The notes under the pieces were generated by a model. The model was not told the origin of the DNA and searched no databases. It worked only from the letters and a program-made list of their open reading frames with translations. Position numbers and translations under genes: made by a program. This document shows, piece by piece, positions 44,910 to 63,215 of a stretch of 64,000 nucleotides of DNA. Origin of the DNA: Kineosporia sp. A_224 (GTDB taxonomy: Bacteria > Actinomycetota > Actinomycetes > Actinomycetales > Kineosporiaceae); the NCBI RefSeq assembly GCF_002198655.1, contig NZ_MWLN01000107.1, positions 1-64,000 of the forward strand. The letters run 5' to 3'. Position 1 is the first letter of the stretch. Each line of letters opens with the position of its first letter.

Positions 44910-45016
44910 GCTCTGGCTCGTCAGGCCAGGCTGTGGGTGGCGTCGGGAGAGCCGGTGGATCCGGGATGGAGACGGTGTGGAGACCGATCACTCCTGCCCG
45001 AGACGGTGGTGATGCC

Positions 45017-47564: not shown

Positions 47565-48474
47565 CGTGCGCCTCCTCGCGCGGCGTCTCGAAGAGCTCGG
47601 CCATGCGGTGCCGACGGCGCTCCATGCGCACGAGGCCGAGCCCGAGCCCGGCGACGGCGTCCCGGACGGCGTCGAAGGTGCCCTCGCCGTCCAGCACGAC
47701 CTCGAGCAGGCGGCCCGCCGGGCGGACGTCGAGGCCGCCCTCGCGCAGCAGCCGGGCGACGTCGCCGGCCCGGTCGTCCACCTCGACGACGAGCACCCCG
47801 CTCACCCCGGTGACGTCGGCCGTGGACGACGACCGCAGGAGGCGCCCGCCGTCGATCACGACGACGTGGTCGCAGATCCGCTCGAGCTCACCGAGCAGGT
47901 GCGAGGTGACGAGCACGGAGATGCCGAAGTCGCTGCCCACCCGGCGGATCAGCCCGAGCATCTCGTCGCGGCCCGCGGGGTCGAGGCCGTTCGTCGGCTC
48001 GTCGAGGAGCACGAGCTGCGGGTCGTGGACGAGCGCCTGCGCGAGCTTGACCCGCTGCCGCATACCGGTGGAGTAGCCGCCGATCGAGCGGTAGCGCTCC
48101 TCGTAGAGGCCGACGTGCCGCAGGACGTCGGCGGTGCGTTCGCGGGCGGCGGTCGCCGGGAGCCCGGACATCCGCGCCATGTGGACGACGAACTCCGTCG
48201 CCGTGGTGTCGGCTGGCAGGCAGTCGTGCTCCGGCATGTACCCGACGCGCTCCCGGATGGCCTCGCCGGCCTCGCGGACGTCGAGCCCGAGCACCTCGGC
48301 ACGCCCTTCGGTCGCCGGGAGCAGACCGAGCAGGATCTTGATGAGCGTGGACTTGCCCGCGCCGTTGGCGCCCACGAGCCCGACGACACCGGGCTCGACG
48401 TCCAGGGTGAGGGCGTCGAGCGCGGTGATGGAGCCGAAACGCATCGTGAGCGCGTCGGTGACGATCAGAGGCAC
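47548..48474 (-). CDS. ABC transporter ATP-binding protein
   Basis: A 308-residue ATPase: Walker A GLVGANGAGKSTLIKILLGL, signature YSTGMRQRVKLAQAL, Walker B PQLVLLDEPTNGLDP, H-loop VLVTSHLLGELERI, then a 90-residue extension ending MAELFETPREE. GTG 48474 is chosen because TAGGGT stands 7 bases upstream; the frame stays open much further without homology. It is the first gene of the ABC operon. Confidence 0.92.
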   Translation of the reverse strand: MPLIVTDALTMRFGSITALDALTLDVEPGVVGLVGANGAGKSTLIKILLGLLPATEGRAEVLGLDVREAGEAIRERVGYMPEHDCLPADTTATEFVVHMARMSGLPATAARERTADVLRHVGLYEERYRSIGGYSTGMRQRVKLAQALVHDPQLVLLDEPTNGLDPAGRDEMLGLIRRVGSDFGISVLVTSHLLGELERICDHVVVIDGGRLLRSSSTADVTGVSGVLVVEVDDRAGDVARLLREGGLDVRPAGRLLEVVLDGEGTFDAVRDAVAGLGLGLVRMERRRHRMAELFETPREEAHDVDVP

Positions 48475-48679
48475 GACGAACACCCTAGGCGCGCGGACGG
48501 GGGCGGACCCTGCAGCCAGCCCCCCTCCTGCGCTGCTGCCGGCCCCCAGTGCAGCACCGGTCGGGACCTGATCGTGACAGGCCGGACACGGTACGAATCC
48601 GGCCTTTCGCCGACGCCATGATCCGGGCATGCTTCGTGCCGCACGGTCCTCGTGGATCGTGCTCATCGGGGAGTGGGGC
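48475..48679. promoter_or_regulatory. Divergent regulatory region of ABC and VWA genes
   Basis: Reverse: TAGGGT at 48482-48487, 7 bases before the ATPase GTG. Forward: an inverted repeat GCCGGA/TCCGGC at 48581-48603 enclosing TACGAA, a possible -10 box. No gene is seen in the spacer. Head-to-head position suggests shared control. Confidence 0.45.
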
Positions 48680-50569: not shown

Positions 50570-50587
50570 CCGGCGGGGCGTCTCGAA

Positions 50588-50615
50588 CCAGGACGGCTTC
50601 CGTCCGGAATCCTGG
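50588..50615 (+). terminator. Hairpin after VWA gene
   Basis: Two overlapping dyads, CCAGGA/TCCTGG (50588-50615) and GGACGG-CTT-CCGTCC (50591-50605), can form alternative hairpins 20 bases after the stop. TAGCGT at 50617-50622 is a possible -10 box for the next gene. Confidence 0.55.
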
Positions 50616-50660
50616 CTAGCGTCCAGCGCCGAGGTCCCCGAGGTGAGCCTGGAGGAGACG

Positions 50661-51620
50661 ATGAGCGATGTCGTGGCGTGGCTGCTGGACGCCGACCCGG
50701 CCGTCCGGTGGCAGGTGCTCCGCGACCTCACCGACGCGCCGCCCGCCGAGGTGGCCGCGGAGCGGGCCCGGGTGGCCGAGACCGGTTGGGGCAAGCGGCT
50801 TCTCGACCTGCAGGACGGCGGGCAGTGGGCCGGCGGGGCATGCTTCCCCGGCAAGGACTGGCGGCCGGCGCAGCCGGTCGTGGGCGACCCCGAGGGCCAG
50901 CCGTGGACCTCGACGCTGCCGACCCTGCGGCTGCTGCGCGAGCTCGGCGTCGAGCCGGACCATCCGGCCGTGCGCGCGGCCGTGGCCGGCGTCCGGGAGC
51001 ACTGCCGGTGGGAGTACGCCGGTGAGCCGTTCTTCGCCGGTGAGGTCGAGCCGTGCATCAACGGCGGGACCGCGACGATCGGCGCCTACTTCGGCGAGGA
51101 CGTCGACGGCATCGTCGCCCGGCTGCTCGGCGAGCAGCTCGAGGACGGCGGCTGGAACTGCGAGGCGGAGAACGGGTCCGTCAGGTCGTCCTTCCACTCG
51201 ACGCTCTGCGTGCTCGAGGGCCTGCTCGAGTACGAACGCGCAGGCGGCGCCCGTCCGGTCGCGCAGGCACGGCGACGCGGCGAGGAGTACCTGCTCACGC
51301 GCAGCCTCTTCCGTCGCGCGAGCACCGGGGCGACCGTCGACCCCGACTGGCTGCGGTTCTCGTTCCCCCCGCAGTGGCACTACGACGTCCTGCGGGGGCT
51401 CGAGTACTTCCGGGCCGTCGGGGGCACCCCGGACCCACGGCTCGCGGACGCGGTGCAGCACGTCCGCGACACGCAGCAGCCCGACGGGACCTGGCTCCTG
51501 GAGAACACCTACCCCGGGCTCGTGCACTTCGAGCTCGAGGACGGCGACGGGAGGCCCAGCCGCTGGAACACGTTGCGCGCGCTGCGGGTGCTGCGGTGGT
51601 ACGGCTCCGCCCGACCCTGA
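50661..51620 (+). CDS. Terpene cyclase-like alpha/alpha-toroid protein
   Basis: A 319-residue protein of squalene-cyclase/prenyltransferase-like toroid repeats: VAWLLDADPAVRWQVLRDLT opens, LLGEQLEDGGWNCEAENGSV and DTQQPDGTWLLENTYPG are QxxDGGW-like repeats. The catalytic DxDD of cyclases is not seen, so it is probably not a cyclase. In actinobacteria such proteins are annotated as hypothetical or prenyltransferase-like. GGAGGAG precedes ATG 50661. Confidence 0.75.
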   Translation: MSDVVAWLLDADPAVRWQVLRDLTDAPPAEVAAERARVAETGWGKRLLDLQDGGQWAGGACFPGKDWRPAQPVVGDPEGQPWTSTLPTLRLLRELGVEPDHPAVRAAVAGVREHCRWEYAGEPFFAGEVEPCINGGTATIGAYFGEDVDGIVARLLGEQLEDGGWNCEAENGSVRSSFHSTLCVLEGLLEYERAGGARPVAQARRRGEEYLLTRSLFRRASTGATVDPDWLRFSFPPQWHYDVLRGLEYFRAVGGTPDPRLADAVQHVRDTQQPDGTWLLENTYPGLVHFELEDGDGRPSRWNTLRALRVLRWYGSARP

Positions 51621-51626
51621 GGGCCC

Positions 51627-51642
51627 CCGCGGTCAGCCGCGG
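51627..51642. terminator. Short GC hairpin between convergent genes
   Basis: CCGCGG-TCAG-CCGCGG lies between the toroid gene stop and the cupin gene, overlapping the cupin stop codon. Confidence 0.4.
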
Positions 51643-52259
51643 TGGTCCGGGGTCAGCGCGGGCAGAAGAACGGCGATCTCGGGCGGGATGGTCTCCAGCT
51701 CCTCGACCGTGGCTCCGGTGTGCTGCTCGTACTTCTCGTACCGCCCCTGCAACCCGCGCATTCGGGCGATGGGGGCGAGGGCTGCGAACAACGGTCGCTG
51801 CACCGCTCGCGGCGGGCTCGTGAAACGGATGGTGTCGTCGAACTCGCGGGCGAGCAGGGCCGCCTGCAGCAGGCCCGGGCGCCCGGCGGAGTCGGCGCGA
51901 CCGTCAGCCGCCAGGCCGAACAGGTTGCGGATCATGGCTTCGAAGCGGTGACCGGGGTCGACCTCGACGATGACGAACGCGGTCTCGTCGCCGACGGTCC
52001 ACCAGTCGTGGGGGGTGCCGGGCGGGACCACCACCCGCGTGCCGGGGACGGCGTGGCTCTCGACCCCGCCGACCCGGACGCCCAGGGTGCCGCGGACGAC
52101 GGTGAAGGTCTCACGGGCGTGCGGATGGACGTGCTCGCCCACGACCGCGGCGCCCGGGCGGGCGTACAGGTCGGCGACCAGCGGCGAACCGTCGCTGGGT
52201 GCGTGGCGCCTGAGGGCGCGCTCGCCGGTGACGGGGTTCTCGATGACGGCATAGCTCAT
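51633..52259 (-). CDS. Cupin domain protein
   Basis: A 208-residue protein. The cupin metal site reads VVGEHVHPHARETFTVVRGTLG (HxHx3-6E), followed by VPPGTPHDWWTVGDE with the second histidine. Residues 120-208 are a helical tail (LLQAALLAREFDDTIRF). Single-domain cupins of this size may bind metal and act as small dioxygenases, isomerases or sensors. AGGAG lies 7 bases before the ATG. Confidence 0.85.
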   Translation of the reverse strand: MSYAVIENPVTGERALRRHAPSDGSPLVADLYARPGAAVVGEHVHPHARETFTVVRGTLGVRVGGVESHAVPGTRVVVPPGTPHDWWTVGDETAFVIVEVDPGHRFEAMIRNLFGLAADGRADSAGRPGLLQAALLAREFDDTIRFTSPPRAVQRPLFAALAPIARMRGLQGRYEKYEQHTGATVEELETIPPEIAVLLPALTPDHRG

Positions 52260-52291
52260 GGGATGGCTCCTACGAAGCCGGGGCAAGAACG

Positions 52292-52315
52292 CCGCACGGC
52301 GTTCGAGTCGTGCGG
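52292..52315. terminator. Hairpin downstream of the truncated membrane gene
   Basis: CCGCACG and CGTGCGG pair across 10 bases, between the stop at 52333 and the cupin start. Confidence 0.5.
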
Positions 52316-52332
52316 AACGAGCAGTGACGAGG

Positions 52333-52743
52333 TCAGGCCTCTCGACCGGAGCGCACCTGGCACCACAGCAACGCCACGGTGGCGGCGCTCAGTGCGGCCG
52401 TGCGCAGCAGGTTGGCGTCGAGGAGGCCGTCGATGGTCGCTGCGGACCGGCCGACATCGTCGAGGCGGTCGTGCAGCGGGACGGCCCACAGCACCGTCGA
52501 CAGCAGCGAGGTGAGGCCGGCGACGCTGACGAGCGCGGCGACCGGGCGTGGTGTGGAGGCGGGTCGCGTCCAGTAGAACGCCGCACCGGCCAGGAAGGTC
52601 AGGAAGCCCGGCGCGATGACGACGACGGGGATGGCTTCGTTGTACTGCTGGTGATAGGCAGCGAAGGCCGCCGGGGCCACAGCGCGGTACAGCGGGTACG
52701 ACACGAGCTGCGCCTGCCAGCCGAGGGCGGTCGAGTACGCGGC
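52333..52743 (-). pseudogene. 5'-truncated small integral membrane protein gene
   Basis: Open reverse frame with three or four membrane helices: PVVVIAPGFLTFLAGAAFYW, ALVSVAGLTSLLSTVLWAVP and LLRTAALSAATVALLWCQV. In-frame codons upstream of the first GTG (52704) read TALGWQAQLVSYPLYRAVAP, which looks like the first helix and loop (TGLxWxVQxVxYPLF) of this protein type, but no start codon exists before the frame runs into the TetR fragment. The 5' end has been lost. Confidence 0.6.
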
Positions 52744-53209
52744 GGTCCCGCTGTCGGAGCGACCTGACGTGCGCGCCCTGTACGAGACGCCGGACGCCCG
52801 GGAGTTCCTGCAGGGCTACGCCCGCCTCGGCCGCGAGCTGCTCGACCGGGTGGGACCACTCATGCTGCAGGTCACCGCGGGGGCGGCAGCCGGCGAGGAG
52901 GACCTCGTCGCCCAGCAGCGCGTGACCGACGGCGAACGGCTCGCGGGCACCACCATGGTCGCCCAGCGGCTCGCCGCCCTGGACGCACTGGCACCCGGCG
53001 TCACCGTCGAGCAGGCCCGAGATCGCATCTGGACCCTGAACAGCGTGCAGGTATGGCACCTGCTGACCGGCTCGCGCGGCTGGAGCGGTGAGCAGTACGA
53101 GCACTGGATCGGCGACGCGATGTGCGCAGCCACCCTGGAAGCGCCGCCTCCGGCTGACACCGGGGATCTCGCAGGTCCCCTCATCTCTGCCGGGGACGAC
53201 GGGCGGTGA
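52742..53209 (+). pseudogene. TetR regulator fragment (C-terminal domain only)
   Basis: Forward frame reading PDVRALYETPDAREFLQGYA, LLDRVGPLMLQV and TVEQARDRIWTLNSVQVWHL, then LTGSRGWSGEQYEHWIGDAM, the ligand-domain pattern of TetR proteins. No N-terminal HTH exists; the first start is GTG 52769. The frame meets the truncated membrane gene at about 52740-52765, so a deletion appears to have removed the 5' halves of two divergent genes together with their shared promoter. Confidence 0.65.
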
Positions 53210-54041
53210 CGACCCAGGCGGCAAAGCCGAAGCGGACGCCGTCGTCGGTCTGGTGCGCGGCGAGCGTGGTGCGCAGGGCCTCCACGGCGGCGTCACGACG
53301 TCCCGGTTCGTGCCCCTCGAGCATCCAGCCGAGCAGGCCGACGACGAGGGCGTGGGCCTCCCGGACCGTCCGCCCGTAGCTGGTGGTCTCCGCGAACCCG
53401 GCGAGACCGATCTCGGTGAATCCCGCCTGCTCGAGGAGAGCACGCACATGGTCGGGGTCGCTCAGGGCGAACGGCCCGGCGGCTCCAGGCGCCGGAGCGG
53501 GCGGGGTGCGTCCGGCCAGCGCCAGGGAGAACGCGTTGATCCACTCCTGACGGTCGGGGGGTTGCCAGGTCAGCAGCGCCAGCCGGCCACCGGGTCGCAG
53601 GCTTCGCCTCAGGTTGGTGAAGGCCTTGGTCGGGTCGCCGAAGAACATGGCGCCGGTGCGACTGATGACCACGTCGTAGGCGTCCGTCGCGAACGGGTGC
53701 ACCTGGGCGTCGGCCCGGGCGAAGGAGACGTTCCTCAGGCCTTCGTCGTCGGCGATGCTGCGGGCGACGTCGATCATCCGCGAGGACAGATCGACGCCGA
53801 GCGCGTGTCCCGCACTCGCGGCGCGAGCGGCGCCCCTCGTCGAGACGCCTGTTCCGCACCCGATGTCGAGCACCCGGTCCGACGAGGAGATGTCCGCGGC
53901 GGCCATGAACGCCGGGTCGTAGCGGGCGAGGCAGGACTCGAGGATCTCGTGGTGGACGGCCCAGCAGGCGCCCTCCCCGCCGTCCCAGGCCCGGGCCTGG
54001 TCGGCGTTCGACTCGTCGACCGGTGTCTCGATCGTCGTCAC
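53181..54041 (-). CDS. Class I SAM-dependent methyltransferase
   Basis: A 286-residue methyltransferase. Motif I is RVLDIGCGTGVSTRGAARAA, then ALGVDLSSRMIDVARSIADD, VSFARADAQVHPF and YDVVISRTGAMFFGDPTKAF. Substrate unknown; it belongs to the small-molecule UbiE/SmtA-like group. GTG 54041 has GGAGG 4 bases upstream. It diverges from padR across a 41-bp dyad, so PadR is its likely repressor. Its 3' end overlaps the TetR fragment by 29 bases. Confidence 0.87.
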   Translation of the reverse strand: MTTIETPVDESNADQARAWDGGEGACWAVHHEILESCLARYDPAFMAAADISSSDRVLDIGCGTGVSTRGAARAASAGHALGVDLSSRMIDVARSIADDEGLRNVSFARADAQVHPFATDAYDVVISRTGAMFFGDPTKAFTNLRRSLRPGGRLALLTWQPPDRQEWINAFSLALAGRTPPAPAPGAAGPFALSDPDHVRALLEQAGFTEIGLAGFAETTSYGRTVREAHALVVGLLGWMLEGHEPGRRDAAVEALRTTLAAHQTDDGVRFGFAAWVVTARRPRQR

Positions 54042-54057
54042 AGTTCCTCCAACCGGG

Positions 54058-54098
54058 TAGTCTCTATGGGAGTAACCAGAATCATCCCAAGGAGACTA
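54058..54098. promoter_or_regulatory. 41-bp nested dyad, PadR operator
   Basis: TAGTCTC-TA-TGGGA, 13 bases, TCCCA-AG-GAGACTA: both arm pairs are perfect and centred at 54078. It lies between the divergent methyltransferase and padR genes and covers the padR ribosome site (AAGGAG), so bound protein would block padR expression and probably the divergent promoter. Confidence 0.8.
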
Positions 54099-54099
54099 T

Positions 54100-54744
54100 G
54101 TGTCAACTCCTCCTCGCCTGACCGCGACCACCTACGCCGTCCTCGGCCTGCTGGCCGTGCAGCCGTGGAGCACCTACGAGCTGACCCGCCAGATGGACCG
54201 CACTCTGGGCCGGGTCTGGCCGCGGGCCCAGAGCAAGCTGTACGAGGAGCCCAAGAAGCTGGTCGCCCGAGGACTCGCCGAGGCGGTGGACGAGACCGTC
54301 GGTCGTCGACCACGCACGGTGTACTCGATCACCGACGCCGGACGACGAGCACTCGCCGAGTGGCTCCAGGAGCCGGGCGAAGGTCCTGTCCTGGAGTTCG
54401 AGCAGCTGGTGAAGCTGAGCTTCGCCGAACACGGAACACGGAACGATGCCCTGCGTACCATCGCCGCTGCGCGCACCTGGGCCGAGGAGCGCAACGTCGA
54501 GAATCTCGCCGCCGCGCAGCAGTACGCCGCCGGGGAGGGTCCGTTCCAGCACCGGGCGGCCCAGGCGATGCTCGCCGGCGCCTTCTTCACCGAGTACTAC
54601 GCCATGGTCGGCCGCTGGGCGGACTGGGCGCGCGAACAGGTCGAAGGCTGGCCCGAGGACCCCGCCGCGGCCGCCGCCGGCCCTGACGACCTCGCCGCCA
54701 TCGCAGAGCGTGCCGGATGGTCGGCACGGGAGAGGAGAGACTGA
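54100..54744 (+). CDS. PadR family transcriptional regulator
   Basis: A 214-residue repressor. The winged helix reads TTYAVLGLLAVQPWSTYELT, RQMDRTLGRVWPRAQSKLYE, EPKKLVARGLAEAVDE and RPRTVYSITDAGRRALAEWL; the rest is the PadR C-terminal helical dimer domain (AAQQYAAGEGPFQHRAAQA). AAGGAG lies 5 bases before GTG 54100 inside the operator, which implies autorepression. Ligand unknown. Confidence 0.92.
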   Translation: MSTPPRLTATTYAVLGLLAVQPWSTYELTRQMDRTLGRVWPRAQSKLYEEPKKLVARGLAEAVDETVGRRPRTVYSITDAGRRALAEWLQEPGEGPVLEFEQLVKLSFAEHGTRNDALRTIAAARTWAEERNVENLAAAQQYAAGEGPFQHRAAQAMLAGAFFTEYYAMVGRWADWAREQVEGWPEDPAAAAAGPDDLAAIAERAGWSARERRD

Positions 54745-54824
54745 CCCCGAGAGGCCCCGTGTCGAACCCTCGGCCAACGCAGCAGCATCCGACCCGCGCC
54801 TGAGATGCGGCCGGTCGCTCGCCC

Positions 54825-54830
54825 TATGAT
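54825..54830 (+). promoter_or_regulatory. -10 box upstream of DUF2235 gene
   Basis: TATGAT, 39 bases before ATG 54870. No clear -35 at 17 bases. A normal leadered transcript with GAGAGGA as ribosome site fits. Confidence 0.4.
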
Positions 54831-54869
54831 CTCGAGCCCAGCCGGCAGGACGACGATCGAGAGGACACC

Positions 54870-56066
54870 ATGGCCCGCACGCTCGTGGTCTGCTCGGACG
54901 GGACCGGGAACTCCCTGCACCACAAAGCCAGCAACGTCAGCGCCCTGATCGGCCTGCTGACCCTGGACTGCGATCGCCAGATCGCCATCTACGACCAGGG
55001 CATCGGGACCGCGGAGGACCCGGCCGGTGCCGTCGACTGGCTGCAGAGCGCCGCCGACCGTGACGCGCTGCTCGTCCAGGAGACCGCGCCCGGCACGGGG
55101 TTCCGCGCCGGCTGGGACCGGTTGCGCGCGCAGGCGACCGGCTACGGCCTGAAGGAGAACGTCGGCCAGCTGTACCTGGCGCTCGCCCAGCAGTACTCCC
55201 CCGGGGACCGGGTGTTCCTGTTCGGCTTCAGCCGGGGCGCGTTCACCGTCCGGGCACTCGCCGGGCTGCTGTACCGGTGCGGCCTGCCCAGGCCCGGGGA
55301 CGACGGCGGCGTGCGGTTCGAACAGGCCTGGACGGTGTTCCGGCAGATGCGTCCTGACGGCAGGGGCGCCGCACGGATCGAGGCGCTCAAAGGCCTCAAC
55401 CAGAACTGCCCGGTGCACTTCCTCGGCGTGTGGGACACCGTCAAGTCGTACGGCGGCCTGCTGCCGGTGAGGCTGCCGCACCTGCGGCACAACCCGGATG
55501 TCCGTCACGTCCGGCATGCACTGGCCCTGGACGAGCGCCGGGCCTGGTTCACCCCCACCACCTGGGGCGGTCTCGACGTCGACCGGGAACCGGGCCGGGC
55601 GATGTCCCGGCTGGATCCTGAGGCGCGGCAGCGGATCCTCGACCAGGACGTGCTGGAGGTCTGGTTCCGGGGCGCGCACAGCGACATCGGCGGTGGCGGC
55701 GAGGAGCACGCCGTCACCGCCCGGATCGCCCTGCGCTGGATGACGAGCGAGGCCGCAGCGGTCGAGGGCGGGCTGGTCCTCGCCCCTTCCGGCGTCGACC
55801 TGCTGGAGGACGGCGATCCACCGAGCCCACCCGTCGTCCACCCCTCCTGGACACCGCGCTGGCGGGCGGTCGAGCAGGTGCCCCGTCTGGAGATCGACAA
55901 CGGCCGGCTGTGGCCGGCCAGGGTTCCCGGGTGGGGCAGCACCGGGGGGCGCAAGCCCGCGCTGTCCCGCCGCGAAGGCGTGGTCCACGTGCACTGCACT
56001 GCCGCCCGCCACCACGCGGTCCCCGGCCCGGTGCACCTCTGCAAGACCGGGGTACCCCACCTCTGA
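54870..56066 (+). CDS. DUF2235 alpha/beta hydrolase (Tle1-like)
   Basis: A 398-residue protein. RTLVVCSDGTGNSLHHKASN opens the fold, FLFGFSRGAFTVRALAGLLY is the nucleophile elbow (serine about 120), and FLGVWDTVKSYGG and FRGAHSDIGGGGEEHAVTA hold the acid and histidine. This is DUF2235, the catalytic domain of type VI phospholipase effectors such as Tle1, but cytoplasmic homologues without secretion systems are widespread. No VgrG, Hcp or immunity gene is near, so an intracellular lipase or esterase is likelier. Confidence 0.87.
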   Translation: MARTLVVCSDGTGNSLHHKASNVSALIGLLTLDCDRQIAIYDQGIGTAEDPAGAVDWLQSAADRDALLVQETAPGTGFRAGWDRLRAQATGYGLKENVGQLYLALAQQYSPGDRVFLFGFSRGAFTVRALAGLLYRCGLPRPGDDGGVRFEQAWTVFRQMRPDGRGAARIEALKGLNQNCPVHFLGVWDTVKSYGGLLPVRLPHLRHNPDVRHVRHALALDERRAWFTPTTWGGLDVDREPGRAMSRLDPEARQRILDQDVLEVWFRGAHSDIGGGGEEHAVTARIALRWMTSEAAAVEGGLVLAPSGVDLLEDGDPPSPPVVHPSWTPRWRAVEQVPRLEIDNGRLWPARVPGWGSTGGRKPALSRREGVVHVHCTAARHHAVPGPVHLCKTGVPHL

Positions 56067-56124
56067 GCCGCGCCCGGACCACTCTCATGCACGTGGCAGC
56101 CGATGTACGTGAGTGGCTGCCCGC

Positions 56125-56661
56125 TCACCCAATGACGCGGTAGTCCGCGAGCACGGAACCCGTCGGTGAGACCGTACTTCGGACGGATGCCAGCCGTGTC
56201 GCAGGTACGCCGTCGAGGAGCCTGCGTCCGGTGCCCGCGATGGTCGGTGCGATCACCAGCCTCAGCTCGTCGACGACGCCCGCAACGAGCAGCGCCTTCG
56301 CGACCTCGATGCTCGCGTGCACGCCGATGTCGGCTCCAGCCTCGCCTTTCAGATCACGCACGAACTCGACAAGGTCGCCGTCGATGACTTCCGTGTTCGC
56401 CCATTTCGGCTCCAACGGAGTCGACGTCGCGACGTACTTCGCTGCTCCGTTGATGAAGGTCGCGAACGGCTCGATGTCGCTGCTGGGCCAGTACCCGGCC
56501 CACTCGTCGTAGCTGCGCCGACCGAGGATGACCGCGTCCTGCGTCGCGATGACGGCCGCAAGGTTGGCATCCATCGCGTCGTCCCAGTCGGCGAAGAACC
56601 GATCGGGCTCGTCCGCGACGCCATCGAGGGACAACAGCTCGTACAGAACCACCTTGCGCAC
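56125..56661 (-). CDS. RibD C-terminal/dihydrofolate reductase-like protein
   Basis: A 178-residue reductase-fold protein: VRKVVLYELLSLDGVADEPD, AVILGRRSYDEWAGYWPSSD, ADIGVHASIEVAKALLVAG and VDELRLVIAPTIAGTGRRLL. This is the YyaP/RibD_C group, which binds NADPH but has no settled substrate. GTG 56661 has GGAGG 8 bases upstream. It is the last chromosomal gene before the tRNA-Ser site. Confidence 0.88.
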   Translation of the reverse strand: MRKVVLYELLSLDGVADEPDRFFADWDDAMDANLAAVIATQDAVILGRRSYDEWAGYWPSSDIEPFATFINGAAKYVATSTPLEPKWANTEVIDGDLVEFVRDLKGEAGADIGVHASIEVAKALLVAGVVDELRLVIAPTIAGTGRRLLDGVPATRLASVRSTVSPTGSVLADYRVIG

Positions 56662-56912
56662 GTCCGACACCTCCAAGAGACCTTGACCCCGCACGGTAGA
56701 CGGCTCCGGCGGCCCGAACTCATCGGTCCGGGCAACCACCCTCGCCGACACAGCCGGCGGGCCCACACCAGCCGCAGGTCGCCCACTGCCGCTGGACAGT
56801 CTCCTGTGCCGATCGGTGCGGCCGACGCGGCCGCAGTTGAGCCGACCACCGGCACGACGTAGCCGCTACGCCTTCTTCGACACGTTGCCTGTTCAGAGGC
56901 ACGACGTGTTTT

Positions 56913-57059
56913 GAGCGGAGGGCAAGGGATTCGAACCCCTGAGGACGGGTTGGGTACCGCCCTGACGGTTTTCAAGACAGACCACCAAACCAGCTCTGAC
57001 CAGGGGCGATGCGCAGATCCGGCGTCTCGTCTCCGTGGCCTGTCCGCGAAGGACTGTCG
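56913..57059. repeat. attachment-site repeat A (left boundary of the island)
   Basis: 147-bp unit repeated with no length change at 62860-63006. It is a tRNA-Ser 3' half (56916-56976) joined to an element end (56977-57059). The element-end part matches copy B at 77 of 83 positions, with 45 in a row identical (57006-57050). TTTTCAAGACAG (56969-56980), identical in both, spans the junction and is the likely crossover core. Confidence 0.85.
56916..56976 (-). pseudogene. tRNA-Ser(UGA) 3' half, copy A
   Basis: Reverse strand: anticodon loop CTTGAAA (56970-56976), 3' stem ACCGT, long variable arm, T arm AGGGG-TTCGAAT-CCCTT (56924-56940), acceptor GCCCTCC and discriminator G. The 5' stem should read ACGGT but reads TCTGT, and no GGAGGGC acceptor or D arm is found to the right, so the gene is cut at the anticodon loop. 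Long variable arm and UGA anticodon give Ser. A GCCTG/CAGAGGC hairpin downstream is a possible terminator remnant. Confidence 0.8.
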
Positions 57060-57175
57060 CGCGTCGTTGCCTGCCGTGGCGGGCGGGACATGTCCAGCCA
57101 CGCTGCGCCGGTTTCGCGAGTATCGGTTCGCGGGTTCGCTGACGCACTCGCTGGTGCGCAGACGCGGTCCCGCGG

Positions 57176-57583
57176 TCAGGCCAGGCGTAGGCCCCTGGCC
57201 GAGTCGACGAGAGCGTGGGCTCGTCGTCCGGCCTGGACGCGTTCCTGACCAGAGACGGGTCGGTGGGTGTATCCGGCTTTCGTCTTCAGCCCGAGCAGTG
57301 CAGCAAGGTGCGCGGCCAGCTCTGCACCGTCGGGTCGGACCTGGCGCAGCAGCGCGACAGCCTCGGCGTGGTTGTCCCCGGAGTGGTGGAGCTCGAGCCG
57401 GTGAGCGGTGATGGCGTCCGCTGCCGCGATGCCGGCATGGACGCAGAGGGTGACGTAGGCGTCGCCGATGTCTGCCGCATCGTCGGCCAGGTCCATGATT
57501 TCGTCGGCGGCGGTCATGAACTGCACCGCCTTGGCGCGACGCCCTACGGCGTAGCCGGCGTCTGCGCGGCGGTTCGGGCTCAC
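57176..57583 (-). CDS. HEPN-domain protein (putative toxin partner)
   Basis: A 135-residue mostly helical protein: DEIMDLADDAADIGDAYVTL, VHAGIAAADAITAHRLELHH, GDNHAEAVALLRQV and KAGYTHRPVSGQERVQAGRR. AADAIxxxR..G.NHxxAVxLLR is the SAV_6107-like HEPN pattern. It starts at a GTG overlapping the nucleotidyltransferase stop (GTGA) and follows it, the standard order for MNT-HEPN modules, where HEPN is the RNase toxin and MNT its antitoxin that AMPylates it. The usual RX4-6H catalytic pair is not clear here, so activity needs proof. Confidence 0.7.
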   Translation of the reverse strand: MSPNRRADAGYAVGRRAKAVQFMTAADEIMDLADDAADIGDAYVTLCVHAGIAAADAITAHRLELHHSGDNHAEAVALLRQVRPDGAELAAHLAALLGLKTKAGYTHRPVSGQERVQAGRRAHALVDSARGLRLA

Positions 57584-58227
57584 CGGACGGAGGGTAGCGA
57601 CCGGGTCCGACGGTGCCGGACACGCAGTCGGCGCAGGGCCGCGACATCGCCGGCCAGGGGGATCCCGTCACGCAGGACGTCGTCAATGACGGACTCCTCC
57701 TCGGCGTTCGCTGCGTCGCTCACGCCGACTTCGAGGACGCGGGTGTCGTTCCCGGTCCACCGGGCGACGTCACGCTCGAGGTCCGCGATCTGGCCCCGCC
57801 ACCTCGGGTCATCAGTCGCGAGGCCACCGGGTCGGACCACGAGGATGTCCAGGTCACTGTCGGCCCGTTCCTCACCGCGGGCCGCGGAACCGAACAGCGC
57901 CGCATACGCAGGAGCACGTTCCCACGAGCCCAGGACGCCTCTGAGCCGGTCCAGCAGCGCGAACCGCAGATGCGCCAGAGCCAGAACGGCGGTCGCAGCC
58001 AGGTGCTCACGGTTGAGCCTGTACATCTGCGCGGCCCCCGCCGGCTCCCGCAGGACGATGCCCTGCTCCACGAGCCGAGCCAACGCCCGGCGGGCCCCCT
58101 CGCTGCTCGCACCTGCCAGACGCGCCAGCTGCCGGCCGGTAAACGCGTGATCGGCCCCCGCAAGCACGGCGAGGAGGTCGCCGTCCAGCGCGGCGGTGAC
58201 GACCCGCATCGGCCTCGAGAGCTCCAT
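57580..58227 (-). CDS. Nucleotidyltransferase (MNT) with N-terminal winged helix
   Basis: A 215-residue protein. Residues 1-75 form a winged helix (GADHAFTGRQLARLAGASSE, ARRALARLVEQGIVLREPAG). Residues 105-200 are a MNT domain with LFGSAARGEERADSDLDILV: GS at 113-114 and the catalytic aspartates around 123-127. With the HEPN gene overlapping it, this is a MNT-HEPN pair whose antitoxin carries its own DNA-binding domain, giving autoregulation without a separate repressor. ATG 58227 has no clear Shine-Dalgarno; TACGAT is 8 bases upstream. Confidence 0.8.
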   Translation of the reverse strand: MELSRPMRVVTAALDGDLLAVLAGADHAFTGRQLARLAGASSEGARRALARLVEQGIVLREPAGAAQMYRLNREHLAATAVLALAHLRFALLDRLRGVLGSWERAPAYAALFGSAARGEERADSDLDILVVRPGGLATDDPRWRGQIADLERDVARWTGNDTRVLEVGVSDAANAEEESVIDDVLRDGIPLAGDVAALRRLRVRHRRTRSLPSVR

Positions 58228-58262
58228 GAGCAGTCATCGTAGCTTAGTGACCGTTATTTATG

Positions 58263-58526
58263 TCATACGTCTGTTTGAGCAGTCAGTCGTTCGTGATTGT
58301 GGATGCACGTCGCTACCGTAGGGCCGCGCACGCGACCCCTTCGCCGCCCTGTCGCCGCGTGCAGCATGACCATCTGCCTGCTGACCAGGACCCACGCCGC
58401 GCGATCCAGGGCGCGGCGCACCTCCTGCTGGCTGACACCGACCGTGTCTGCAGCCTCGGCCGATGGCACCACCTCCGAGTCGGCCACAACTCCTCGAGCC
58501 CTCGGGGTCGGACAACTACGCCTCAT
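58263..58526 (-). pseudogene. Possible helix-turn-helix remnant
   Basis: Reverse 87-codon frame. Its middle reads EVVPSAEAADTVGVSQQEVR, then RALDRAAWVLVSRQMV, close to a helix-turn-helix start followed by a helix; the rest is Arg-rich and unlike any family. It may be a decayed regulator of the MNT-HEPN pair or chance coding. No ribosome site. Confidence 0.3.
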
Positions 58527-58560
58527 CGTCCGGGGACGACAGGACCGCCTCCCGCCATTG

Positions 58561-58598
58561 GTTCCTCTATGCGTTGCATAAGCAACGCATAGAGGAAC
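58561..58598. repeat. Perfect 17-bp hairpin with ATAA loop
   Basis: GTTCCTCTATGCGTTGC, loop ATAA, and its exact complement. The length and perfection exceed every other hairpin in the window. It lies 42 bases beyond the stop of the reverse gene at 58641, so it may be its terminator, but it also resembles a recombination or protein-binding site. Confidence 0.8.
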
Positions 58599-58640
58599 GG
58601 CGTCCTCCCCAGGCCGACGAACGTTCTCCGTCAGGCCCGG

Positions 58641-59222
58641 TCAGCGAACGGCGGCTTGGCGCCGGTAGTCGACCGTCGCGGCGACGACGGCCAGGATGGC
58701 GTTGAGCCGGTCCTGGCGATCCACAGGCTCGTGCTCGTTCCAGGCGTCGGCCGGAATAGCCCCGACGAGACGGCGGCATCGCCGCAGCTCGGACCGTGAC
58801 AGCTCGGCGTCGTGGGCGATCGCGGCCAGGGCACCGAGCAGGGCCGGTTCCGCCGCCGGGTCGCAGCGTTGCTGGACCTGCTCGGCCGCGGTGAGCCAGG
58901 AGTCGTCGCCCTCGGGGGTGACGTCGAGTCGGTCGGAGATGGCGGTGAAGAGCAGCATCGAGGCCGAGAACCAGGCGGGTCCGATCCGCTCGTGCTCGTC
59001 GAACGGCAGGTCCACGGCCCGCTCGACGTACCGTCGGGCCCGGTCTACGTCGCCCGAGGACAGGGCCCGCACCGCCTTGCGCAGCAGGTTGTCACCGGCT
59101 GCATGGAGGCCTTCGCTGACCGGCGCCAGAACACGGTTCGACCGGTCGCGGAGCCCGCCCAGCGGCCGTTCCCGTTCACGGTCGAGCATCCGGTGCAACT
59201 CGTCGAGCCGCGGCGAGGTCAC
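58641..59222 (-). CDS. Island protein of unknown function
   Basis: A 193-residue helical protein: VTSPRLDELHRMLDRERERP, LRKAVRALSSGDVDRARRYV, ERAVDLPFDEHERIGPAWF, DDSWLTAAEQVQQRCDPAAE and DRLNAILAVVAATVDYRRQA. Repeated helix pairs suggest a TPR-like or scaffold role; I do not recognise a family. TACCGT (59229-59234) ends 6 bases before GTG 59222, so it is leaderless. It diverges from the DUF6933 gene. Confidence 0.65.
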   Translation of the reverse strand: MTSPRLDELHRMLDRERERPLGGLRDRSNRVLAPVSEGLHAAGDNLLRKAVRALSSGDVDRARRYVERAVDLPFDEHERIGPAWFSASMLLFTAISDRLDVTPEGDDSWLTAAEQVQQRCDPAAEPALLGALAAIAHDAELSRSELRRCRRLVGAIPADAWNEHEPVDRQDRLNAILAVVAATVDYRRQAAVR

Positions 59223-59228
59223 TCGCAA

Positions 59229-59234
59229 ACGGTA
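59229..59234 (-). promoter_or_regulatory. Leaderless promoter of island gene
   Basis: Reverse-strand TACCGT, 6 bases before GTG 59222, no Shine-Dalgarno sequence. The same promoter form is used in the core chromosome. Confidence 0.5.
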
Positions 59235-59275
59235 GCGTCGCCCGCGGCCGGCCAGGACGGATCTGCGGAGGTGTC

Positions 59276-59812
59276 GTGTTCGTCGTCCACGCCACGGCGA
59301 GGTTGCTGGCGAAGCTCGGACCGCCCGCGGCCGGTGAGGCACCGCCGTCGACGACATCGCTCGGCGCCTGGTACGCGACCGTCCTGCGGTGGCGGTCGCC
59401 GGTCGCACTGTTCGTCAACGAGGCCACCCTGCTGCCGGTCCTGCTGCCCCTGGCCCCGGCTCGCGCCCTGTGCGCGAGGTTCCCCGGCGCCCTCGCTGCG
59501 GTCCTGGCCGCGCACGCCGCGCCGACGCAGTTCATCGAGGCCGAGATCCACGCGATGGATACCTGTGTGCTGGCCAAGACGGCGAACCGCAGCACCATCG
59601 GGATGCTCACCGAGTTCAGCTTCCTCGCCGACGCCCACCGCGACGGTGCAGGGCCTGCAGGCCTGACTGCGCTCGCCGTGCGCCTGGCCCACACCCCGTG
59701 CGGGCCGCTGCACAAGACCCACGTCTTCCCGGATCGTGCGCTGCAGGCCCATCTCCGCGAGCGCACGTCACGCCCGGCGCTGCGCCTCGTCCAGCCGGAC
59801 GAGAGCTCATGA
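59276..59812 (+). CDS. DUF6933 family protein
   Basis: A 178-residue protein: VVHATARLLAKLGPPA, PPSTTSLGAWYATVLRW, VALFVNEATLLPVLLPLAPA, RALCARFPGALAAVLAAHAA and TCVLAKTANRSTIGMLTEFS. This set of phrases is DUF6933, a small domain of unknown activity. GGAGG precedes GTG 59276. The stop overlaps the next ATG (ATGA), so the two proteins are made together. Confidence 0.75.
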   Translation: MFVVHATARLLAKLGPPAAGEAPPSTTSLGAWYATVLRWRSPVALFVNEATLLPVLLPLAPARALCARFPGALAAVLAAHAAPTQFIEAEIHAMDTCVLAKTANRSTIGMLTEFSFLADAHRDGAGPAGLTALAVRLAHTPCGPLHKTHVFPDRALQAHLRERTSRPALRLVQPDESS

Positions 59813-61611
59813 GCAGCGGGCGGGGCCTAACGCTCGGGGCTTTCGTGGCCGACCTGCGGTCCCGTCTGGCCCCGCTCTCCCGGGACGACCTGACCCGGCT
59901 GCTCCTCGCGCACGCCGAACGGCTCCCCACCTCAGAGCGCGCGGCGTTCCTCGCGATCTTCCCTGACCCGACGGACCCGACAGATCTGACGGGCCCGGCA
60001 ACGGCCCGGCCCGAACACCGTGAGGTGGACGACGGGCTGCCGCAGCGGGTGCGCGACTTCGCGGCCCGGGTCGCAGCGGGGGACTACGACGACCCCGAGG
60101 AAGGCTGGGACGACGGTTGGCAGGGGCGGTACGGCTGGGACGACGCGCAGCCTGTCCCGGCCTGGGTGGCCGATGCCGACGCCCTGTTCGCCGAGGCCTC
60201 CGAGGTCTTCCTCACCGCCGATGCGCAGCACTCACGCGAGGTGTACGACCTGCTGCTCGACCTGTTCCGGCCTGACCCACCGGGACTGCCCGAAACCCTG
60301 GCCGAGATCACGCTGGACATCTGGTCCTTGGAGGCCACCGACGTCCCCGAAGCCCTCGCCCGCTACGTGCGCTGCGTGTACGAGACGACCCCGGCAGCGG
60401 CCCGCGCGAACGCACTCGGCGTCGCCTGGTCGACGCTGCCGTGGAGTCCCGAACCCCTGAGCCTGGCCCAGGTCACCGACACCCGCCCGGTTCCGCTGCC
60501 GGACCTCGCCGGCTTCCTGCCCGCCTGGATCGACCAGCTCGTCGGCGGCGCTGACGGGCCACCGGCCCGGGAACGCGTCCGGCTGCTCGCCGAGGCCGCC
60601 CACCTGCACCACGGTCTCGACACGCTCGCCGACCTGGCCCGCAGACCCGGACCCCACCAGGGCGGGATCAGCCGGATCCGCGTCGACGCCCTGGCCGCCG
60701 CCGGTCGCCCGGGCGACGCGGCCGACGCCGCCCGCGAGGCAGTCACGCTGCCCGGTCTGGAGCCGGGCCTCCTGGCCGGGCTCAACGACCGCCTCGCGGA
60801 CCTGTGCGCCGCCACAAACGACCTGCCCGGCGCCGTCCGCGCCCGACAGGATGCCTGGCGCGCGCTCCCGAGCCACGACCGGCTGATCGCCATGGTCGAC
60901 GACGCGCGCACCGCCCAACTGCTCGACGACGCCCTGACGGTCGAAGCCGCGCAGGTCCTGGACGCCGCCACCCGAACAGGTGCCGGACCGGACCGCCTCG
61001 GCTGCGAAGTGCTGCTGCTCGCAGGCCTCCTCGACCCCGCGGTCGCGGCGCTCACCGCATCCGAACCCCTCGGCTGGTCACGGCTGGCACATCCGGGCCC
61101 GGTGGTCCTGCCCTGTCTGTGGGCCGCCGCCACCGCCATCCCGCGGGACGGCCTGCTGCGCGCGACATTCACCGCGATCGACACCCTGCACGACACCCAG
61201 GACCACGAGCGGCTCTTCCGGACCAGCACGCCGGACAACGACAACCCGTGGACGACCGGCCGGGCAAGCACACCCGCCCGCGAGCGGCCCACCCTGACCG
61301 CGCTCCTCACCGAAGCTCTCACGACCCGGCTCGCCACCGCGTCGCAGCCGACCGACCTGATCGACATCGCACAACGCGTCACCGACGCACGGATCGACGC
61401 CATCGTGTCGAACAAGCACCGCAGCGCCTACTCCCGAGCCGCCGCCCTCACGTTCGCCCACGCCGAAGCCCTCACGACCCGATCCCCGGACCAAGGCGCC
61501 GCCTACATGTCAGAAGTCCGCGCCCGCTACCCACGGCACGTCGCATTCCGCCAGGAACTCGACAGCGCCGCGAAGGCCACCTCGCTCCGCAGCAAGACAC
61601 GCACCCGTTGA
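59809..61611 (+). CDS. Large island protein, helical repeat type (DUF6880-like C-terminus)
   Basis: A 600-residue cytoplasmic protein coupled to the DUF6933 gene. Residues 1-80 start SSGRGLTLGAFVADLRSRLA and LTRLLLAHAERLPTSERAAF; a long helical body follows (DRLADLCAATNDLPGAVRAR, HDRLIAMVDDARTAQLLDDA). The end reads VTDARIDAIVSNKHRSAYSR and EVRARYPRHVAFRQELDSAA; the SNKHRxxYxRAA...YPRHxAFRxEL signature recalls DUF6880/SWIM-associated proteins. Function unknown; helical repeats suit binding of protein or nucleic acid. Confidence 0.6.
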   Translation: MSSGRGLTLGAFVADLRSRLAPLSRDDLTRLLLAHAERLPTSERAAFLAIFPDPTDPTDLTGPATARPEHREVDDGLPQRVRDFAARVAAGDYDDPEEGWDDGWQGRYGWDDAQPVPAWVADADALFAEASEVFLTADAQHSREVYDLLLDLFRPDPPGLPETLAEITLDIWSLEATDVPEALARYVRCVYETTPAAARANALGVAWSTLPWSPEPLSLAQVTDTRPVPLPDLAGFLPAWIDQLVGGADGPPARERVRLLAEAAHLHHGLDTLADLARRPGPHQGGISRIRVDALAAAGRPGDAADAAREAVTLPGLEPGLLAGLNDRLADLCAATNDLPGAVRARQDAWRALPSHDRLIAMVDDARTAQLLDDALTVEAAQVLDAATRTGAGPDRLGCEVLLLAGLLDPAVAALTASEPLGWSRLAHPGPVVLPCLWAAATAIPRDGLLRATFTAIDTLHDTQDHERLFRTSTPDNDNPWTTGRASTPARERPTLTALLTEALTTRLATASQPTDLIDIAQRVTDARIDAIVSNKHRSAYSRAAALTFAHAEALTTRSPDQGAAYMSEVRARYPRHVAFRQELDSAAKATSLRSKTRTR

Positions 61612-61926
61612 AAAAACCCGCGCCATCGACGAACCCCACCGGCGTCGACGCGGAACCACTACGCCGATGCGCCGACCAGGATCCCGTCGAACGCCGCCTC
61701 GAGACTCCACAAGGACGGCGCACGTCCAGCACCTCGCCGATCTTCTACGCCAGCGAGGGCACGTCCGGAGACGATTCCGCACACGAAGCCTGGGCTGCCG
61801 CGAGGACGGCGCGCGGACGCGGCATGCTCGACCCGCTCGGGGCGCCACCGGTCGGACCATTGCCGGATCTCTATAAAGATCTATAGACTTCCCGCAACCC
61901 GCAACGACGTCCGGGGAGGTGCCGAC
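61612..61926. other. 315-bp spacer with operator-like repeat
   Basis: A forward frame here reads TPQGRRTSSTSPIFYASEG, then HEAWAAARTARGRGMLDPLG before a stop at 61886, which looks protein-like but has no start codon; perhaps a gene remnant. At 61870-61887 is the dyad TCTATA-AAGATC-TATAGA, the most AT-rich site of the region. Confidence 0.5.
61870..61887. promoter_or_regulatory. TCTATA dyad upstream of HTH antitoxin-type gene
   Basis: Perfect 6-bp arms around AAGATC, 40 bases before the start at 61927. AT-rich, hence also a likely promoter. The excisionase-type HTH protein downstream may bind it. Confidence 0.5.
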
Positions 61927-62652
61927 ATGGCCAATGCACAGATGAGTGTGGCCGAAGCCGCCGAGATGCTCGGCGTCCACCCGCAGCGCATCCACCAGCG
62001 GATCCGGGACGGCAGCCTGCCCGCGGAGAAGATCGGGCACCAGTGGGTCCTCGAGATGGACGACCTGCGCCGCATCGAACGCCACGCCGGGCCAGGGCGG
62101 CCCCTGTCATCGAAGTCGGCGTGGGATCTGCTCCTCGTCGCCGGCGAGGGCGGGGCCTCGGCTGGTCTCAGCCCGTCGGCGCGGTCCCGGGCACGGTCAC
62201 GGTTGCGGCTATTGCTCTCCCACACCTCGTCCGACGACCCCGACGACGTCGCGGTCCACCTCGTCCGCGCGTTGGGCAACCGAGCCGAGCGGAGACTGTT
62301 CGCCGCCTCCCCCCGCGACCTGCCAGCGCTGCGCGACGACCAGCGCGTGCACCTCAGCGGCGTCTCGCTCCCCGCGTCGAACATGTCCGTCGCCGCCGTC
62401 GCAGAAGGTTACGTGCACCCCGACGAGCTCGACGGGCTCGTCGACGACTACCTGTTGTCCCCCGCTGCCCGCTCCCGCGCCAACGTCATCCTCCACGTCG
62501 TCCCGTTCGCCTCCTCGAGCCCGGCACTCGCCGGCCTGGACGCCGTCGCGGGCTCCCCGCTCGCGATCGCCGCCGACCTGGCCGAGCACGACGGCATCCG
62601 CGAGAGGAACGAGGCCCTCCGCTCGCTCGCCGGCCTGCACGCCCGGTTCTGA
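61927..62652 (+). CDS. Excisionase-HTH protein of antitoxin type (no partner)
   Basis: A 241-residue protein. Residues 1-50 are an excisionase/MerR-like HTH: MSVAEAAEMLGVHPQRIHQR and IRDGSLPAEKIGHQWVLEMD. The rest has RLRLLLSHTSSDDPDDVAVH, LVRALGNRAERRLFAASPRD and EGYVHPDELDGLVDDYLLSP, followed by NVILHVVPFAS. I recall such proteins next to nucleotidyltransferase (AbiEii-like) toxins; here no partner follows, as the island ends 210 bases downstream. GGGGAGG lies upstream of the ATG. Confidence 0.65.
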   Translation: MANAQMSVAEAAEMLGVHPQRIHQRIRDGSLPAEKIGHQWVLEMDDLRRIERHAGPGRPLSSKSAWDLLLVAGEGGASAGLSPSARSRARSRLRLLLSHTSSDDPDDVAVHLVRALGNRAERRLFAASPRDLPALRDDQRVHLSGVSLPASNMSVAAVAEGYVHPDELDGLVDDYLLSPAARSRANVILHVVPFASSSPALAGLDAVAGSPLAIAADLAEHDGIRERNEALRSLAGLHARF

Positions 62653-62859
62653 TGGCGCTCGGTGAAACTCGCCACGGTTGCTCATCGAAATTCACCGCCC
62701 TGGTGGCGGGGACCGGCAACGGTCTGACGAGACGGTGTCCGCGCATTGTCCGCAGCATCCGACGCCGAGGAGTCAGAGGCCGTAGTGAAGCCGGCCGCCG
62801 ACACGACGTCGTCGCTACCCCCAACTCGACAAACTGCCTGGCCAGAGGCACTATTTGTT

Positions 62860-63006
62860 GAGCGGAGGGCGTGGGATTCGAACCCACGGATCAAGGTTGG
62901 TACCAAGATCAACGATTTTCAAGACAGGGCACCAAACAAGCTCTGACTAGGAGCGATGCGCAGATCCGGCGTCTCGTCTCCGTGGCCTGTCCGCGAAAGA
63001 CTGTCG
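62860..63006. repeat. attachment-site repeat B (right boundary of the island)
   Basis: Second 147-bp copy. Its tRNA half differs more from copy A (T arm GTGGG-TTCGAAT-CCCAC, anticodon 3' stem ATCGT) while the element-end half is 77/83 identical. DNA to the left of both copies is also similar (GCCTG..CAGAGGCAC), as if this tRNA 3' end and flank came in from another genome. It marks the join with a second element to the right. Confidence 0.85.
62863..62923 (-). pseudogene. tRNA-Ser(UGA) 3' half, copy B
   Basis: Reverse strand: CTTGAAA loop (62917-62923), ATCGT 3' stem, variable arm with TTGG/CCAA, perfect T arm (62871-62887), acceptor GCCCTCC and discriminator G. The 5' side reads CCTGT instead of ACGAT and no acceptor 5' strand follows. 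This is the 3' half brought by the first element, later separated from its 5' half by the second. Confidence 0.8.
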
Positions 63007-63215
63007 TGCGTCAGTGCCTACTGTGGATGGCCGGACCCATCGGCGACCGTGACGGCCCCGGCGTTGCAGTCGGTCGTGGTCACGACTCGCCGCCGTCCGC
63101 CGCGCGCGGATGCACCCACGGACACGCGGCCGCCTCTCTGTTCGAGACCGCGGGCGCCCACAATTGACTCGGGGGCCAACATACCTTATGAAGTGCGTTC
63201 ACTCTCGCCCCTCCT
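63007..63215. other. Spacer at the start of the second element
   Basis: No gene, hairpin or promoter that I can support. GC falls from left to right. Confidence 0.5.

Follow-up and report, generated by a model that had tools for sequence, protein, structure and literature searches.

The 64-kb window considered here comprises bases 1-64,000 of contig C10 (112,588 bp) in the 242-contig, 7.2-Mb draft genome of Kineosporia sp. A_224. Near its right end, it contains two direct repeats that each hold the 3' half of a tRNA-Ser(UGA) gene and together bound a unit of 5.9 kb. This locus is likely to be an array of integrative elements that target tRNA-Ser(UGA) and are stacked in tandem, in which the 5.9-kb unit is of the cis-mobilizable type and which, on C10, has been severed from its tRNA. 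The evidence comprises the form of the repeats, an integrase remnant to their right, the lack of any recombinase match within the 5.9-kb unit, a gene cut short where the array ends on the right, occupancy of the same tRNA gene in relatives, and a pair of related genomes in which the site is occupied in one and empty in the other.

Form of the repeat units

The two repeat units, A and B (window positions 56829-57089 and 62778-63036), are ∼260 bp each and 79% alike. Their tRNA-derived portions (copies A and B) lie in direct orientation, 5947 bp apart from start to start. In both, the tRNA-Ser 3' half is cut in the anticodon loop, and the sequence TTTTCAAGACAG is common to the two copies. In these respects, and in the 5.9-kb length of the first element, the first-pass annotation of this DNA was confirmed. 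The repeat length of 147 bp given there was an underestimate; the similarity extends over ∼260 bp, of which 82 bp lie beyond the tRNA 3' end. The parts of the two units are as follows.

56829-56910, no strand assigned: P side of unit A, lying past the tRNA 3' end; 74% identical to 62778-62859 over 82 bp
56915-56978, minus strand: copy A of the tRNA-Ser(UGA) 3' half; 98% identical to C39:42289-42382 over 64 bp
56979-57089, no strand assigned: P' side of unit A, on the far side of the anticodon cut, forming the left end of the 5.9-kb unit; ∼88% to 62926-63036
62778-62859, no strand assigned: P side of unit B, lying past the tRNA 3' end, with which the 5.9-kb unit ends on the right; similar to the unit A flank
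62862-62925, minus strand: tRNA-Ser(UGA) 3' half, copy B, of a different tRNA-Ser lineage; 50/65 to the host tRNA
62926-63036, no strand assigned: P' side of unit B beyond the anticodon cut, forming the left end of the next unit; ∼88% to the P' side of unit A

The similarity of A and B outside the tRNA 3' end gave a Smith-Waterman score of 59, to be compared with a mean of 17.4 (S.D. 2.4, highest 28) for 200 shuffles. The resulting z of 16-17 was repeated in a comparison of 13 flanks, and among 40 scored genome matches, these flanks were present only at A and B. The ∼260-bp unit would fit a candidate attachment (att) sequence of an integrase. The next unit, to the right of copy B, may run to approximately contig position 74,939.

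The two 3' halves are of unequal relationship to the host. Over 64 bp, copy A has 98% identity to the intact host tRNA-Ser(UGA) (61/62 in the 3' half), whereas the 3' half of copy B matches the host tRNA at 50/65 positions and those of nine other family genomes at 72-79%. All positions of the copy B T stem are paired, but the pairs differ. When the host 5' half was joined in silico to either copy, a tRNA-Ser(UGA) was called by ARAGORN. By sequence comparison, copy B is probably foreign but functional-looking, with a donor host outside this family. A search with an 88-bp stretch of copy B against 394 genomes of the class at E 1e-9 returned its own genome only, at a cut-off too strict to name the donor, and an exact search of viral_contigs with the copy B 3' half returned none.

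Matches of unit A to 13 plasmid records were to the tRNA part, with ≤25% of the unit covered; the same applied to unit B in the best 15 of 35 matching phage records. Exact searches with a 33-mer of the P' side in genome_contigs and with a 24-mer in viral_contigs gave no match. Octamers common to both flanks of a 3' half were unevenly distributed: a repeat of ∼17 bp was present in the related genome G004, one or two direct matches were present in A, B and G010, and none was present in G009. Given this unevenness, arm repeats give little support. The 150 bp to the left of copy B and to the left of the 3' half at C39:7352 aligned with a Smith-Waterman score of 38 (z 7.2). As a separate observation, short stretches that match the words CTGACCAGGGGCGATGC exactly or nearly so occur at L020 1501-1520 (G003), L027, L043 and L048. 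In G003, this sequence directly follows tRNA-Ser(GGA) inside a hairpin-like stretch, and it is perhaps a common terminator-type sequence.

The tRNA-Ser(UGA) gene in this genome and in relatives

ARAGORN called no tRNA in the 64-kb window or between contig positions 62,500 and 80,000. The island had been described as lying at a tRNA-Ser gene, with the tRNA next door; this part of the description does not hold. A genome search with the full tRNA recovered one intact tRNA-Ser(UGA), at C39:42289-42382, together with 3' pieces at C39:7352 (65/65), copy A, copy B and, weakly, C10:74939. No intact tRNA therefore stands at either end of the array, the intact gene being on C39 and C10 holding no 5' half. 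The first-pass annotation had set against its own model the case of two complete genes elsewhere with no 5' half to the right; a single complete gene was found, on C39, and the 5' half is indeed absent, in what is a draft assembly. Matches to the 5' half only were all short among 25 genome matches at E 10 (best 18 bp, C141, E 0.05), and thus no orphan 5' half stands out in the genome. A related feature was seen at another tRNA gene of this genome: L005 (C238:6302-6332) is a tRNA-Ser(GGA) 3' half that breaks off at the anticodon loop and lies apart from the intact gene at C126:1033; it is perhaps due to an anticodon-loop element at a second tRNA-Ser.

The DNA to the left of the intact tRNA-Ser(UGA) was examined in 12 of the 13 family genomes, over 7.6 to 40 kb each. 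G006 was omitted from the occupancy count because its contig begins 225 bp before the tRNA. A second 3' half (41-42/42 nucleotides) was present to the left of the intact gene in four of the 12 genomes, at a spacing of 2,114 bp in G004, 5,877 bp in G009, 14,523 bp in G010 and 34,937 bp in the genome of the window. No second 3' half was found within the DNA covered in the other eight, where the best match was 26/42. Comparison of relatives yielded one pair with an occupied and an empty site: the alignment of G009 (occupied) with G011 (empty) runs to TTTTCAAGACC and then parts at the anticodon loop. For this family of 13 genomes, these data establish tRNA-Ser(UGA) as a site of integration, one pair of genomes showing it occupied and empty.

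The elements found at this tRNA differ in content. That of G010 (14.5 kb) encodes RepSA (2e-99), FtsK_SpoIIIE, Phage_integrase and GmrSD/HEPN proteins, and integrase matches were present on both sides of its displaced half. The 2.1-kb element of G004 carries an AAA_14-DUF4143 gene, and of four open reading frames scanned in the G009 element, one encodes a DNA methylase and three are without family. At E 1e-8, the stretches covered in G004 and G009 gave no match to the C39 integrase.

In the genome of the window, the ∼35-kb region beside the intact tRNA encodes an integrase, 39% identical to that of G010, and a TrwC relaxase. Given its two 3' halves, C39:7352-42289 would be one 34.9-kb element. 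An initial assignment of C39:20-31 kb to native chromosome, made on genus-wide conservation and a tRNA-Thr call, was dropped given that the relaxase overlaps its edge and the integrase is near. The ARAGORN call in question, a 93-nucleotide tRNA-Thr at C39:22943-23035 (L063 12943-13035) in the relaxase-bearing region, is of odd length and possibly false. Near the start of the contig, to the left of the 3' half at C39:7352, an rve-type transposase is encoded at C39:1847-3064 (L070) and may explain the assembly break.

Content of the 5.9-kb unit and the DNA to its right

The six open reading frames of the 5.9-kb unit were scanned against Pfam and NCBIfam, with five of the six also covered by PADLOC. 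They are as follows (HTH, helix-turn-helix).

57176-57583, minus strand: 135-residue protein without family; no match in Pfam, PADLOC or NCBIfam
57580-58227, minus strand: HTH and MNT-type nucleotidyltransferase; PF01909 E 2.5e-6, PADLOC PDC-M05A E 2.1e-18, NCBIfam MntA below cut-off
58641-59222, minus strand: 193-residue frame without family; Pfam and NCBIfam only
59276-59812, plus strand: DUF6933 protein; PF22016 E 5.2e-29
59809-61611, plus strand: 600-residue protein without family; Pfam, PADLOC and NCBIfam scans
61927-62652, plus strand: 241-residue protein with an N-terminal HTH_17/excisionase-type domain; PF12728 E 2.8e-9, TIGR01764 E 9.7e-7

None of the six frames matched a recombinase or transfer family in Pfam or NCBIfam. 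When used as a query, the C39 integrase gave matches solely outside the unit. Nor was any member found within the unit of the signature set of an actinomycete integrative and conjugative element (AICE), i.e. Rep, an FtsK-type Tra protein and an integrase. Both ends of the unit have att-type anatomy, but similar flanks also occur at the empty sites of relatives.

The MNT gene is a candidate antitoxin or defence gene by its family matches, and its position suggests that the adjoining 135-residue protein may be a HEPN-like toxin partner. In this pairing, the MNT side is supported by Pfam and PADLOC, and the neighbour is without any family match. The 600-residue protein has no relative in genome_contigs or plasmids, and the TIGR01764 score of the 241-residue protein (29.1 bits) lies just above the cut-off of 28.8. 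Two further features of the unit were noted. The 50 bp at 62650-62699, just inside the right end, are 94% identical to C39:35039-35088 and might be a remnant of an insertion-sequence end, and the intergenic stretch 58561-58598 contains an inverted repeat, identified by eye, with 17-bp arms and a 4-base loop.

Two large proteins without family are encoded directly after copy B, followed by a decayed integrase at contig positions 67006-67389 on the minus strand, which is 40% identical over 130 residues to the C39 integrase (E 1e-15). A genome search with Pfam Phage_integrase gave matches at 17 places, none of them on C10, in keeping with decay of this gene. The first-pass annotation had pointed to the right for an integrase and the tRNA 5' half; the former is thus present in decayed form, and the latter is absent from C10. 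Beyond the integrase remnant lie genes for DUF1643, DUF429/RusA, DUF6884-DUF7669-GIY-YIG and SMC/AAA proteins, and at contig positions 74939-74970 there is a third, degraded tRNA-Ser 3' end (29/32 nucleotides to the G004 tRNA, z 17).

Conserved chromosome begins at 78,782, from where C10 is collinear with contig C68 of G001 to ∼112 kb, with a gap at ∼89.4-90.3 kb. At this edge, a gene for an ABC-F-like ATPase (named by eye; C10:78781-78858, L011 ∼16282-16359) is cut after 26 codons; its counterpart in G001 is intact and encodes 630 residues. Given this truncation, the right edge at 78,781 would be a rearrangement breakpoint or a misassembly. The possibility that G001 contigs C97 and C68 are neighbours was considered and dropped, as C68 looks like continuous core sequence (ABC-F and glmU by eye).

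Placement of the proposed array and relation to known systems

The preferred reading of an array severed from its tRNA can be set out as a mechanism. Elements would enter tRNA-Ser(UGA) by a tyrosine-integrase crossover in the anticodon loop. Given that each element brings a replacement 3' half, an incoming element can recombine with the resident copy and stack, its att site crossing over with the 3' half already in place. The 5.9-kb unit may have been mobilized by an integrase acting in trans, for which the C39 integrase is the nearest candidate, and the unit to its right would once have owned an integrase, since decayed. The locus would formerly have been adjacent to tRNA-Ser(UGA) and later severed from it, the array being without a working tRNA on C10 because its right side is joined, by rearrangement or assembly error, to a core locus inside the ABC-F-like gene.

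Several observations weigh against this reading. A 30-nucleotide scan of the whole of C10 found no 5' half (best 21/30), and core genes, of which metG was named by eye, lie to the right of the array; the link of the array to the tRNA is thus putative. An excisionase-type HTH is present within the 5.9-kb unit. Compared with G004, G009, G010 and C39:7352, the P' sides of A and B scored at z −0.3 to 2.2, and the P' side of the 3' half on G001 C97 was resembled by A alone of the two, weakly (z 4.1; its score of 27 lay just under the highest shuffled score, 28). With P' arms unshared, kinship with the elements of relatives rests on the common target. At E 0.01, the P' side had matches in two of 13 family genomes (its own and, over 20 bp, G003) and in 42 of 396 genomes of the order, all but its own being pieces of 19-54 bp. 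Similar flanks are also seen in relatives, at true or apparently empty sites, and are therefore no proof of an attP. An apparent P' homology of A and B with G004, consisting of a 98-bp BLAST match that extends 33 bp past the tRNA half, was dropped when z fell to 2.2 beyond the tRNA.

To the left of copy A are the following genes.

54870-56066, plus strand: Tle1-like/DUF2235 phospholipase-type gene; PF09994 E 7e-64; 91% to G001 C97:28575-29814
56125-56667, minus strand: RibD_C-type reductase, cargo of a further unit or part of the flank; PF01872 E 6e-15

Window positions 45011-51603 match G001 C97 at 96%, and the DUF2235 gene does so at 91%. At C97:29927, ∼112 bp past the DUF2235 match, G001 carries a host-identical 3' half (63/63 to C39:7352), this copy and the intact tRNA being the two 3'-half matches of that genome at E 1e-5. 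This G001 3' half is the best indication that tRNA-Ser(UGA) of this genus formerly had the DUF2235 side on its left. To be set against this, the left-flank homologues of G012 lie 1.7 Mb from its tRNA-Ser (0.54 versus 2.25 Mb). In nine other family genomes, the DNA to the left of tRNA-Ser has no clear orthologue in common with the left flank of C10, its matches to C10 or C39 being limited to the G010 integrase and weak or paralogous proteins. The arrangement of the block 51625-54769 and the DUF2235 gene differs among the three genomes of the genus, and thus the variable region (51625-56080) starts to the left of the reported island.

In a tRNA-borne island, host flank is followed by a 3' half and the element, and the other end of the element by a 3' half joined to the tRNA 5' half. 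Where elements are stacked, the boundary between them has element DNA on both sides of a 3' half. Units A and B fit the latter form in that both flanks are similar. As proof that unit A is an internal junction, however, the A/B flank similarity fails, since in the sister genus the same is seen at the G011 empty site and the G009 outer border: the G009 flank to the left of the displaced half matches the G011 empty-site flank (z 67) and also resembles the flank of the element itself (z 6.4). In G010, the two flanks are alike at z 18. In G007-G012 (L096-L100, L094), the 150 bp to the left of tRNA-Ser(UGA) are mutually similar with or without a displaced 3' half, a likeness that may reflect leftovers of earlier elements or a captured native flank. 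In the 13-flank comparison, similarity of the copy A outer flank to that of G001 C97 or of the host tRNA was below the z cut-off, which leans slightly towards an internal junction. On these comparisons, unit A is slightly favoured to be an internal junction rather than the outer border.

The model put forward in the first-pass annotation would make copy A the native 3' end displaced by the first element and copy B the end that this element carried, re-entered by a second element, with the 5' half to the right. It was right as to the kind of locus and wrong as to the adjoining 5' half. As a description of this array it remains a tentative alternative. Near-identity of copy A to the host tRNA and the foreign character of copy B are as it would predict, the G001 3' half occupies a matching place past the DUF2235 gene, and the true outer flank in G009 likewise resembles an element flank. 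By contrast, C10 is without a 5' half and has an unrelated core locus on the right, and the outer flank of copy A resembles that of copy B (z 16-17) and not those of G001 C97 or the host tRNA.

It is also conceivable, if doubtful, that the array was never at tRNA-Ser and arose by insertion at a secondary site beside the DUF2235 gene, with subsequent stacking on the carried 3' half. A 3' half is present at this place in both G000 and G001, the intact genes of these two share another right flank, and the distance between the left-flank homologues and tRNA-Ser in G012 would be accounted for. On the other hand, the truncated gene at the right edge shows that the surroundings of the array have been rearranged or misassembled, and the P' side was seen on C10 only after two tRNA halves, with no junction between this arm and non-tRNA sequence of the sort that a first secondary insertion should leave.

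We regard as unlikely the proposal that the right edge at 78,781 is an assembly chimera and that the true DNA continues into further elements and C39. Such an error could arise in a 242-contig draft in which island DNA turns to chromosome inside a conserved gene, and C39:7352 carries another 3' half whose left flank resembles that of copy B. The junction was judged by eye alone, and the comparison of contig ends is irrelevant to an internal join. Finally, it is highly improbable that A and B belong to a dispersed repeat of tRNA origin, or to an RNA gene, rather than being attachment sites: the unit is conserved between both copies with no protein assigned to it, but its flanks are confined to A and B, the break falls where relatives show integration, and an integrase remnant is near.

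The proposed array of tRNA-Ser(UGA)-specific elements has parallels in several known systems. Tandem accretion with cis-mobilizable elements (CIMEs) is already well described (PMC5704250, PMC3146451). CIMEs have att ends, lack integration and transfer genes, and stack at att sites (PMC5704250), as proposed for the 5.9-kb unit; they differ from the present case, in which the contig does not place the stack beside its tRNA and the 3' halves of the two copies are of different tRNA-Ser lineages. The Dehalococcoides ssrA islands are likewise tandem and bounded by repeats of an RNA-gene 3' end, 15 of them being without an integration module, and differ in their serine-recombinase integrase, their tmRNA target and the location of all repeats within 100 kb of ssrA (PMC3146451).

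The Islander account describes an attP of ∼250 bp holding a tRNA fragment, an anticodon-centred crossover class and tandem arrays (PMC4383910), and its tRNA islands thus share with this locus the displaced 3' fragment, the crossover class, the attP length and the tandem arrangement. Given that Islander rejects candidates without an integrase, the 5.9-kb unit alone would go unlisted (PMC4383910). AICEs and their remnants are reported to accrete at one tRNA, tRNA-Arg, within a population of Streptomyces (PMC9513070), and tandem AICEs are reported from Frankia (PMC3218068). The G010 element, with RepSA, FtsK and a tyrosine integrase, resembles these, as does the occurrence of several elements and a remnant at one tRNA site; the 5.9-kb unit differs in that its scan gave no match to any of these three signature genes, and the tRNA here is Ser(UGA) (PMC9513070, PMC3218068).

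No report of integration at tRNA-Ser(UGA) in this family was found among the papers listed by literature searches, a result that proves little. Of note here are the 2.1- and 5.9-kb units without an integrase match, both of which an island finder requiring an integrase would reject, and one array seemingly cut off from its tRNA. A broader proposal is that integrase-less defence cassettes of 2-6 kb, each with an att sequence of its own that includes a tRNA-Ser(UGA) 3' half, use the integrases of AICEs and other integrative and conjugative elements that target this tRNA, stack across genera, and can persist away from any tRNA gene, with resident 3' halves as their landing sites; this has only slim prospects, given that the units of different genomes are without common P' arms. 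If the units do move, they would offer a simple route for defence genes riding conjugative elements.

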